From: a virus | Virus record (IMG/VR): IMGVR_UViG_3300046755_000360 | Coordinates: 1-41,923 of that record | Reading direction: 5' to 3' (one strand) | Length of the DNA: 41,923 nt | Shown here: one piece after another, positions 15,058-17,714 of the stretch | How positions within the stretch are numbered: position 1 is the stretch's first letter | How the letters are laid out: each line of letters begins with the position of its first letter | The notes under the pieces: model-generated | Seen by the model: only the letters and a program-made list of their open reading frames with translations | Database searches by the model: none | What the model was told of the DNA's origin: nothing | Made by a program: the position numbers and the translations under genes

Positions 15058-15669
15058 ATGGATCAGATCAAAACCACCGATGCGGCAACTGAAAGCGCCG
15101 CGCCGCAAGAAACCAACCGAGCGCGGGTGCGTCGCCTGTTCATCGATCCGCTGGTCAAGGATGGCATGCGCTTCCGCCGACAGACCTCGGCTGAGGATCA
15201 GCGGCGCAAGCTTGACCAGATGGCCGATGATCTCGGGTATCTCTCGGATGAATCGCTGCGCATCCTCGCCGCCTGCATGCGGACGAAGGGAGAAGGGTCG
15301 AGCAAGGTCTTTTGGCCCAGCCGGATCAGCATCCTCGGATTTGCCGAGGCGCGTGAGCGCATGCCGTTGCAGGACGTGCCTGGCCTGCGCTCGTGGTTTG
15401 TGTCTGCCGCTGGTCACGAGGCGGCAGCTGTGCCGGGCCGGTTGATCTCCGAGTACGTTTTTTGGAAGAACCACAAGCGCCCTCCGCGTGGGGATCGGGA
15501 GTGGTCGATCGTCACGAGCCGCGCGGAGGACTACGCGCGCCGGGTTGAGCTGATCGAAGACCGTCTGCATCGCGGCGTGACCGTCACCGAGGAGGAAAAT
15601 CGCTGGTTGCGGCGATACCACGAAACTGAAGAAATGCTGCGCGGCTGGCTGACCGGAGAGGGTGCGTGA
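15058..15669 (+). CDS. Putative replication accessory protein
   Basis: 203 residues (start 15058; 15049 also possible, both behind AAAAGGGGG). Charged and mainly helical: RARVRRLFIDPLVKDGMRFRR, a conserved-looking LGYLSDESLRILAACMRTKGEG block, then an arginine-rich C-terminus. It follows the initiator gene in the position of a helicase loader (lambda P-like) and probably assists replication, but I do not recognise the family. The stop overlaps the next start (TGATG). Confidence 0.6.
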   Translation: MDQIKTTDAATESAAPQETNRARVRRLFIDPLVKDGMRFRRQTSAEDQRRKLDQMADDLGYLSDESLRILAACMRTKGEGSSKVFWPSRISILGFAEARERMPLQDVPGLRSWFVSAAGHEAAAVPGRLISEYVFWKNHKRPPRGDREWSIVTSRAEDYARRVELIEDRLHRGVTVTEEENRWLRRYHETEEMLRGWLTGEGA

Positions 15670-16571
15670 TGAAAATGGCGAAACTTCACACCCCCGAAAT
15701 TCAATGGTTCGCGTGCCGGGTGAAGCGCAAGCAGCTCGGCGGCATTCGATCAGTCACCGTCGGCGGAGACTTCGAAGCATACCGCGATCGGTCAGGCCGG
15801 ATGCGCAAGCGCCGCATCGACGGGACCGGAAGCCGGGTGTTCCTGCCGGAGCACCTTCTACGCCGCGCTGGCTTCGAGGTCTTCCTGCCCGTGAAAAAAG
15901 TGTTGCGCCGGAAAAACCGCTTCACGCCTGAGAAAGCCCATGTGACCCAGCCGCTCTTGGCGGATTGGCTGTTCGTTGGATGGCGGGCAGATATCGATAG
16001 GTGGCATGAACTGATGGATTTGGAAGTGATCTCAGGCGTCATGGGGACTGGCGGGCGGCCGGCAGCCATTCCTTCGGACAGAGTTGCCCGGCTGATGCGG
16101 CAGTGGGGCGGAGGCCGTTTATCCCGTGAGTGCAAAAAAATGGCTGAACAACCACAGATGTACAATCCGGGCGAGGTCGTGAAGGTCCCTGATGGACCTT
16201 TTGTCGACTTCGATTTCAAAATTGTGGATGTGACTGCAAGGGCTGCCCGAGGGGTTATTAACATCTTCGGGCGCGAAACCCCTCTTGAGGTCCCGATCGA
16301 AAAACTTCCAGAGCGCGTCGCTGAGGAGGACCCGGCTATGCCCGCTGATTTGAACCTTAGCGACCCATTCGATCCCGCGCTTTCAACGTGCATCTGCGGC
16401 CATCGGGCAGCGCAGGTATTGCCTGACGATTCGGGGTATTGCGTGACATGCGGCAACTGCGGTGGCCGCGCTGCGCGATGGTCTCAAGATGAGGTCACCG
16501 CGAAAAAGCGCTGGAATGCCTGGGCGGAGAGCATGACGTTAAGTTTCCCCCACAACGTTAAGAGGGCTTGA
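15669..16571 (+). CDS. NusG-like antiterminator with C-terminal zinc ribbon
   Basis: 300-residue paralog of NusG/RfaH. The NGN-type domain spans about residues 11-150 (IQWFACRVKRKQLGG, LRRAGFEVFLPVKKVLR, LLADWLFVGW), and a KOW domain about 167-212 (PGEVVKVPDGPFVDFDFKIVDV...RGVINIFGRETPLEVPIEKL). It carries an extra C-terminal zinc-ribbon resembling Lar-family proteins, with cysteines at 241, 243, 258, 261 and 264 and the ending EVTAKKRWNAWAE. It would bind RNA polymerase and favour elongation; its location immediately before two terminators and the structural genes fits a late-gene antiterminator. The start at 15669 has GAGAGGG six bases upstream. The first cysteine pair is C-x-C instead of the usual C-x-x-C. 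Confidence 0.85.
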   Translation: MKMAKLHTPEIQWFACRVKRKQLGGIRSVTVGGDFEAYRDRSGRMRKRRIDGTGSRVFLPEHLLRRAGFEVFLPVKKVLRRKNRFTPEKAHVTQPLLADWLFVGWRADIDRWHELMDLEVISGVMGTGGRPAAIPSDRVARLMRQWGGGRLSRECKKMAEQPQMYNPGEVVKVPDGPFVDFDFKIVDVTARAARGVINIFGRETPLEVPIEKLPERVAEEDPAMPADLNLSDPFDPALSTCICGHRAAQVLPDDSGYCVTCGNCGGRAARWSQDEVTAKKRWNAWAESMTLSFPHNVKRA

Positions 16572-16764
16572 CTGCGGGGGTGCATGTCTCTTAACAGTTG
16601 GGCATAGACGAAGGTTTGTTGGCCACTGTTGAAAGATACATGCCAGCGCTCCGGGCGGTCGAAGTCGCATGTGTTGCACCCGATTTCGACTGTATGCCGT
16701 CAAGTCCGGGCTACCACGCGAAAGCGCCGCCGCCTGTGACACTGCTGCTGCAATGGAAAGAATG
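16557..16764 (+). other. Gene-free structured region before late genes
   Basis: No gene is visible between 16572 and 16947. The stretch holds three inverted repeats: GTTAAGAG/CTCTTAAC (16557-16564 with 16588-16595); AACAGT/ACTGTT (16593-16598 with 16625-16630); and a 10-bp arm pair at 16658-16667 and 16681-16690 with a single G-U. GGCGGTCG at 16654-16661 differs in one base from the start of the RfaH ops element. It may encode a leader RNA that loads the NusG-like protein; this is inference. Confidence 0.5.
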
Positions 16765-16792
16765 GCCCGGCTGAAAAGCTCGGGCTTTTTTT
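16765..16792 (+). terminator. Intrinsic terminator 1 before late genes
   Basis: GCCCG at 16765-16769 pairs with CGGGC at 16781-16785; the inner GCT/AGC extends the stem around a GAAA loop, with one bulged T. Seven T residues follow (16786-16792). Confidence 0.85.
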
Positions 16793-16880
16793 ATGCCTGA
16801 AGGGTACTTGCACCGATGCTTGGTGGGTATTGAGATGGAGGTTGCCATGTAAATGAAATCCAATTCCTCCCTGTTGAACT

Positions 16881-16918
16881 AAGGCCGGTCACCGCTTGGA
16901 GGTGCCGGCCTTTTTTTT
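16881..16918 (+). terminator. Intrinsic terminator 2 before late genes
   Basis: AAGGCCGG (16881-16888) pairs with CCGGCCTT (16905-16912), with CACC/GGTG continuing the stem around a single bulged T. Eight T residues lie at 16911-16918. Strong rho-independent terminator 30 bp before the first late gene. Just upstream, GGAGG-TTGCC-ATG is followed at once by TAA, a start-stop frame. Confidence 0.88.
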
Positions 16919-16947
16919 GTGAGCGGCGCTCAGATGGAGGAATGCCA

Positions 16948-17520
16948 ATGTTCAGCGTGGGCGAAATTGATGTGAAGGGTTTGCAGCAATTCGAGAACAT
17001 GCTGGGGGCCTTGGGGGCGGAAGCACCGAAAGCCGTGAACCGGGCTATCAACCGCACTGGCGATATGGCCCGCACACAGGTGGTCAGGACGCTGGCGCGG
17101 CAAACCGGCCTGCCACAGAAGACGATACGCAAGTCGGTGAAGATCAAGCGGTCATCCTGGGCCAGCTTGGAGTACCAGCTCAAGTCGGCGGGCGGTGACG
17201 TTTCGCTGAAGTACTTCAAGAAGCGCGAGACCGATGACGGGGTCCGGGCTTACCTGGGCGATGCGAGGGGCTGGGATTGGTTTGCTGAATCCTTCTTCCG
17301 CGGTGGCCGGTGGCCGCGCCCACGAAAGGCGATCGTTTGGAGCCATGGGCACGTGTTCGTTCGCGTTGGCGGGCGCACCGAATTGGAAAAGGTCAAGTCC
17401 GGCATGTTCATCCCCGAAGAGATGGTGGATGGCGCAACGGCTGAGGCGTTCGAGAAATCGGTTGAGAAGAACCTCCCGCGCCGACTGGACCATGAGATCA
17501 GCCGCCTTCTGGGCCTGTAG
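16948..17520 (+). CDS. Minor tail protein Z-like (tail completion)
   Basis: 190-residue protein matching the prophage minor tail protein Z / Gp10-like group: EIDVKGLQQFENMLGALGAEAPKAVNRAINRTGDMARTQVVRTLARQTGLPQKTIRKSV, then a beta-rich middle and a GMFIPEEMV...FEKSVEKNLPRRLDHEISRLL ending. Such proteins act in head-tail joining or tail completion. Unusually, it lies before the terminase genes instead of after the capsid. GGAGG seven bases before ATG 16948 sets the start over 16942. The 194 bp that follow hold only a 25-codon frame and a 10-bp ATAAGCTTAT palindrome. Confidence 0.75.
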   Translation: MFSVGEIDVKGLQQFENMLGALGAEAPKAVNRAINRTGDMARTQVVRTLARQTGLPQKTIRKSVKIKRSSWASLEYQLKSAGGDVSLKYFKKRETDDGVRAYLGDARGWDWFAESFFRGGRWPRPRKAIVWSHGHVFVRVGGRTELEKVKSGMFIPEEMVDGATAEAFEKSVEKNLPRRLDHEISRLLGL

Positions 17521-17714
17521 CGCGGGCATATGAGTATAAGCTTATGACCCTGAAAAAAAGGGACCGTACAGCATCTGGCGCGCACGCGGGGCGGAAGCTG
17601 CCCGAGGGTTCGGCAGTCTGACCGTTTTTTCAAAGCCTTAACATAAGGGGATATGCTTAACGCTGGCTGCTCGGCTTACCAAATTGAGCGGTTAGAAACT
17701 GAATGGGGCGATCA

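Follow-up and report, generated by a model that had tools for sequence, protein, structure and literature searches.

The locus studied here raises the question of what is done by a stretch without genes that lies between the gene for a NusG-like protein and the late genes of a phage, and whether the neighboring protein acts on it. The window, that is, the whole stretch of DNA analyzed, is a virus record of 41,923 bases (IMG/VR IMGVR_UViG_3300046755_000360, one strand). A sequence-only reading of it had proposed an antitermination control switch with an RNA or DNA loading element, and had pointed to a word one base off the ops core within a 10-bp hairpin.

The Gene-Free Gap and Its Terminators

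The gap measured 370 bp and extended, free of genes as the sequence-only reading had described it, from the stop of the NusG-like ORF at 16571 to the next gene at 16942 (16948 by conservation). The strand folded 3.8 standard deviations better than shuffled sequences (-152.8 vs. -131.1 kcal/mol), and the arms 16655-16667 and 16681-16693 covaried among relatives, which confirmed the hairpins noticed at first sight. The gene following the gap, on the plus strand (16942-17520), encoded a Minor_tail_Z/Neck1-like protein (Pfam, 2.8e-10; phrog_27, 2.7e-29) whose conserved start is probably at 16948, and was followed by terS (17703), terL (18389), and portal (20344) genes. No consensus promoter was found by scanning 16919-16947, the interval in which, according to the sequence-only reading, a promoter would speak against a switch.

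Both of the tandem terminators previously seen before the late cluster were real, but only one was general. T1 (16764-16792, plus strand; -15.4 kcal/mol, z -3.7, tail of seven T) lay directly 3' of the leader described below and was retained in nearly all relatives with the general form GGCCCGGCUGNAAAGCNCGGGCC, displaying the same shape behind all three leader classes. T2 (16881-16918, plus strand; -22.2 kcal/mol, z -4.6, tail of eight T) was absent from several relatives (L010 and L044 among them), and by this comparison is outside the conserved core. A simple terminator scan of the window reported neither T1 nor T2, probably because of a bulge in both stems. Strong intrinsic terminators were few beyond T2 in the late region, so that the sequence does not demand processivity of an antiterminated polymerase.

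Two side observations concern the T2 region. The stretch 16837-16918 (5909-5993 in L003) resembled the 3' ends of the Rhodobacter sRNAs SorY and SorX and of mmgR, where CCUCCCUGUUG and a terminator form a module. A search with 96 bases gave E values from 8e-4 to 6e-3 for the window, with scores far below gathering or curated cut-offs; a host-like sRNA may be released from late transcripts. In addition, the T1-T2 interval of the window (16837-16852) and of many relatives contained a good Shine-Dalgarno sequence followed by an ORF of one to four codons (MKRI*, MRHI*, M*), the codons of which differed between relatives while the start and the early stop were retained. Its position corresponds to the start of a gene for a small signal-peptide protein in L042, L050, L059, and L062.

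The NusG Paralog

The gene upstream of the gap (15666-16571, plus strand) encoded an NGN-type domain with a basic insert, a KOW domain, and a C-terminal Lar-like zinc-ribbon tail. The NGN domain matched PF02357 (Pfam NusG) with 33.5 bits against a cut-off of 22.2 (6e-8), the protein matched phrog_6386 at 5.8e-16, and a profile search retrieved NusG chains (best 7e-14). For the KOW domain, a profile built from 19 relatives matched isolated NusG C-terminal domains (e.g., 1nz9, 1.3e-8). The AlphaFold model of the paralog matched NusG and RfaH (Foldseek E down to 8e-9) and the NusG-RNA complex 8f5g (E 6e-4); its overall pTM was only 0.53, as expected for flexibly joined domains. On these profile and model matches, the protein is a specialized member of the NusG/Spt5 family. 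The tail (16392-16520) matched Pfam Lar_restr_allev at E 0.011, below the cut-off, and among the relatives read it appeared only in the subgroup formed by the window, L005, L006, L017, and L067.

Relatives of the paralog were mostly 55-65% identical (range 42-89%) and occurred in IMG/VR contigs and Roseobacter-type genomes, with genera including Ruegeria, Phaeobacter, Antarcticimicrobium, Thalassovita, and Rubricella. No relative was obtained from the phage collection, searched with DNA and protein, at the limits used. The family phrog_6386 was dropped as a search profile for this class of paralogs since housekeeping NusG also matches it.

A Conserved Promoter and a Structured Leader RNA

A conserved promoter, overlooked in the sequence-only reading, is indicated by the comparison of relatives directly behind the NusG gene (16568-16596, plus strand). 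This predicted late promoter consists of the -35 hexamer TTGACT (16568-16573), a 17-bp spacer and the -10-like hexamer TTAACA (16591-16596), the latter being the reason why a consensus scan misses it. In relatives it had the form TTGAC-17 bp-TTAAC and was found in the same position in 15 of the 18 loci gathered by NusG protein alone. The 17-bp spacer was present in 26 of 27 listed loci, part of which had been found with the promoter pattern; in the loci gathered in this way (22 matches), conservation of the hexamers follows from the way they were collected. Transcription is inferred to start near 16603. Of the three inverted repeats reported before, the hairpins hold, but the first has one arm in promoter DNA, which is probably absent from the RNA.

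Two GTTAAG boxes accompanied the promoter on the plus strand: a downstream one adjoining the -35 hexamer (16557-16562), kept in nearly all relatives and with all three leader classes, and an upstream one 19 bp away (16538-16543), inside the end of the NusG ORF, which is a probable activator half-site. The boxes were mostly 19-21 bp apart in relatives, and an activator probably binds there. A second GTTAAG pair, with a spacing of 18-21 bp, was observed on the complementary strand between the tail gene and terS (17590-17665), in a stretch strongly conserved in most relatives. It was considered as a second late promoter and dropped, the location before terS and the conserved stretch pointing elsewhere; these features suggest a candidate cos/packaging site. 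With these boxes in common, the late promoter and the candidate packaging site might be bound by a single protein, either TerS or an activator.

The transcript from this promoter would begin with a structured leader (16603-16763, plus strand), referred to as class A, with six helices and 40 pairs: P1 (16607-16610/16698-16701), P2 (16613-16623/16642-16652), P2b (16627-16629/16638-16640), P3 (16655-16667/16681-16693), P4 (16704-16711/16732-16740), and P5 (16717-16719/16724-16726). In 13 class-A sequences the pairs were formed in 95.3% of cells, and half of them (20 of 40) showed compensatory change, with changes on both sides; compensatory cells amounted to 45, vs. 10.4 ± 2.6 in shuffled sequences and no more than 13 when partners were slid. 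Covariation of the hairpins among related phages, the check proposed at the outset, was thus obtained. An enlarged set of 16 distinct sequences, in an alignment fitted to the structure, gave 23 of 40 pairs and 57 cells. In L048, GAC/GUC in P1 was switched to GUC/GAC, and P3 was rewritten in L044, L048, and L051 with the pairing mostly retained. The class-A covariance model scored 182 bits for the window leader; it gave a single strong match in each class-A locus searched and no match in the other loci. The primary sequence was strongly conserved as well, in loops as much as in helices, and leader length in relatives was around 140-165 nt. The candidate loading element is a multi-helix RNA of around 160 nt with its own conserved promoter rather than the hairpin at 16654-16690 alone.

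Other relatives carried unrelated leaders in the same slot, assigned to class B (L001, L002, L003, L009, L010, L019, and L031) and class C (L041, L042, L046, L050, L052, and L059, with L024 as a weak member at 27 bits). Their folds are predictions, with little variation to check them against. A single model for all leaders was abandoned, as the class models do not cross-match members, and a match in a transposase-like stretch (G324/L065, 32.8 bits) was discarded as due to chance. No Rfam 15 covariance model reached its gathering score over 16603-16763, and permissive searches with classes A, B, and C gave sub-threshold matches only, none of them convincing over the leader. The outcome is three candidate leader-RNA families without an Rfam entry; every one of them goes with a single protein family and a single type of terminator.

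Linkage of Leader and Paralog

The order NusG paralog, GTTAAG pair, promoter, leader, T1, and late genes was fixed in about 28 loci, which belonged to Roseobacter-type phages and prophages. An HMM search of upstream ORFs placed the paralog directly before nearly all leaders, usually within 60 bp. It adjoined the leader in G572 and G483 and was located around 2.5 kb upstream on the same strand in G514 and G650; G649 and G651 carried a leader and no paralog, their contigs ending around 2.4 and 1.4 kb upstream. The class-A model, run over 390 genomes from the order, yielded five convincing leaders, all of them in paralog-carrying genomes, whereas the class B and C models gave zero matches in genomes drawn without a positive control, which makes this result uninformative. 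Paralog, class-A leader, and a terminator-like hairpin were also found side by side on a Leisingera plasmid whose packaging module is of another kind. Two loci (L022 and L025) had the NusG gene and no leader of class A or C over the sequence examined. In L025 (3980-4882; Tropicimonas sp. IMCC34043) the paralog was apparently fused to a tail gene by a deletion that removes promoter, leader, and terminator, and by its sequence this is probably a decayed prophage.

Comparison of close relatives revealed that the KOW domain and the leader had been exchanged together. Between L008 (class A) and L009 (class B) the NGN coding region was mostly 87-97% identical; identity fell to around 62% from about codon 174 through KOW and to around 40% in the leader, and rose again to around 95% after T1. 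At the protein level, NGN was 97% and KOW 71% identical. The pair L010 (class B) and L013 (class A) had the same borders: in both cases one lay where KOW begins and the other at T1. In the NGN tree the leader classes were scattered and seven changes were needed; in the KOW tree, which is short and poorly resolved (71 columns), class B formed one group and classes A and C were mixed, with five changes. The simplest reading of these patterns is that KOW and leader travel as one unit because they are functionally matched. The exchange could also reflect plain linkage of neighbors, since the two adjoin and the breakpoints fall within conserved sequence. A more general proposal, possible though rather doubtful, would be a modular recognition code in which KOW and a large leader RNA are inherited or swapped as a pair, with at least three unrelated folds used in one antitermination slot. 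If it were true, prophages that share a host may fail to switch on one another's late genes.

A Putative Late Switch and Its Alternatives

We regard as probable, on comparative grounds, that the locus is a late switch of Roseobacter-type phages similar to the lambda pR'-leader-tR' arrangement, with the phage NusG paralog as antiterminator. RNA polymerase would start near 16603, probably aided by an activator at the GTTAAG boxes, and without the paralog most transcripts would stop at T1, giving a short RNA of around 185 nt. When present, the paralog would be recruited by binding the folded leader, with KOW as the most likely contact, while its NGN domain would bind the polymerase; we infer that the latter would thereby resist termination at T1, at T2, and perhaps at sites further on in a processive manner, and that the virion genes would then be transcribed. 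The compensatory changes in the leader, its linkage to the paralog, the joint exchange with KOW, and the terminator right after the leader all favor antitermination as first proposed, and of the two loading modes the RNA one fits the comparative evidence, loading through DNA or an ops element being unsupported. Against the late switch, classes A and C did not map cleanly onto KOW clades, and in G649 and G651 a leader occurred with no paralog over the upstream sequence covered. The leader may also do more than recruit the paralog.

Reading of a DNA element by the paralog, as in an ops/RfaH-type switch, would place the signal in the non-template strand at GGCGGTCG (16654-16661), one mismatch from the ops core. 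The word and the hairpin around it are indeed present, as had been reported; the word consists of one flanking base and the 5' arm of P3. However, among 17 class-A sequences, 9 departed from ops by two to five mismatches at the aligned octamer with the helix largely paired, and words within one mismatch of ops numbered 46 over the two strands of the window. A conserved ops element GGCGGTAG in the leader was ruled out by this drift and chance frequency, and we hold an ops-type switch to be very improbable. The leader might instead act alone, suppressing T1 through the polymerase like the put RNA of HK022, with the paralog as a general late elongation factor. Its strong conservation, loops included, would agree with this, and put RNA needs no phage protein (PMC9378689); nevertheless, the leader is linked to the paralog, also in another phage type, and is exchanged jointly with KOW, which makes such an autonomous leader unlikely.

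Possession of its own conserved promoter, a conserved T1, and a highly conserved sequence, together with the resemblance of the window T2 to SorX/SorY 3' ends, would also fit a T1-ended transcript of around 185 nt acting in trans as a phage sRNA, of the kind of lambda 6S RNA or a host sRNA, while the late genes would be driven otherwise. Yet the consensus scan found no other promoter ahead of the late genes, the leader stands upstream of them with the paralog, and three unrelated RNA classes in one slot are a better fit to a cis element with a matched protein; we thus give a trans-acting RNA only a small chance. Finally, a compact multi-helix RNA ahead of a terminator, and in many relatives a Shine-Dalgarno sequence with an ORF of one to four codons before T2, are what would be expected from a riboswitch-like or translation-coupled attenuator, where a ligand is sensed or a ribosome on the short ORF controls T2. 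The predicted folds displayed no competition between leader and T1 stems, T1 folding independently; T2 is not universal, and the short ORF may be a relic of the signal-peptide gene still present in the four relatives mentioned above. Attenuation of this kind appears distinctly improbable.

Relation to Known Systems

In lambda, a late promoter is followed by a short leader, a terminator, and then the late operon (pR'-leader-tR', with Q). The same layout was recognized by sequence in the window and its relatives, but the protein next to the switch is a NusG paralog and not a Q-like protein. Antiterminators such as Q, Q21, AlpA, and GafZ (Caulobacter GTA) enable polymerase to read past terminators (PMC11150451). 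None of Q, AlpA, and GafZ is homologous to NusG, and their loading occurs, or is believed to occur, via promoter DNA elements, whereas a folded RNA is conserved here. HK022 put is a structured nascent RNA near the beginning of a phage transcript; it suppresses termination and requires no phage protein to do so (PMC9378689). The window leader shares this position and structured nature, but exceeds put in size and occurs in linkage with a NusG paralog. RfaH is a NusG paralog with an NGN fold matching that of the window protein; the ops DNA word is not conserved here, and rfaH stands alone while the window paralog is beside its presumed target.

LoaP is the nearest tested precedent for the proposed late switch, by analogy. 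This NusG paralog binds to a hairpin of the leader RNA and, by counteracting NusA, allows read-through of an intrinsic terminator (PMC12691694); loaP-type genes adjoin their target operons, in contrast to rfaH genes, which stand apart from theirs (PMC7819879). The LoaP system of Bacillus velezensis, with its dfn/mln leader hairpin, likewise combines a specialized NusG paralog, a leader RNA element, and then an intrinsic terminator, and the window paralog is likewise beside its leader. Differences are evident in the RNA: LoaP, acting in antibiotic operons, uses a single small hairpin of the UNCG type, whereas the phage late operons have an RNA of 140-165 nt with several helices, six in class A, and a different conserved core. 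The leader is thus much larger than the LoaP hairpin. Unlike the LoaP system, the phages also have three unrelated leader classes, behind a boxed promoter. In the open-access papers searched, no RNA target of a phage-encoded NusG paralog was found described.

The natural swaps suggest which domain of the paralog may recognize the leader RNA. The proposed switch would carry NusG-RNA antitermination from antibiotic operons to the late genes of phages in a large marine bacterial group, and the locus offers a testable system for target choice by NusG paralogs.
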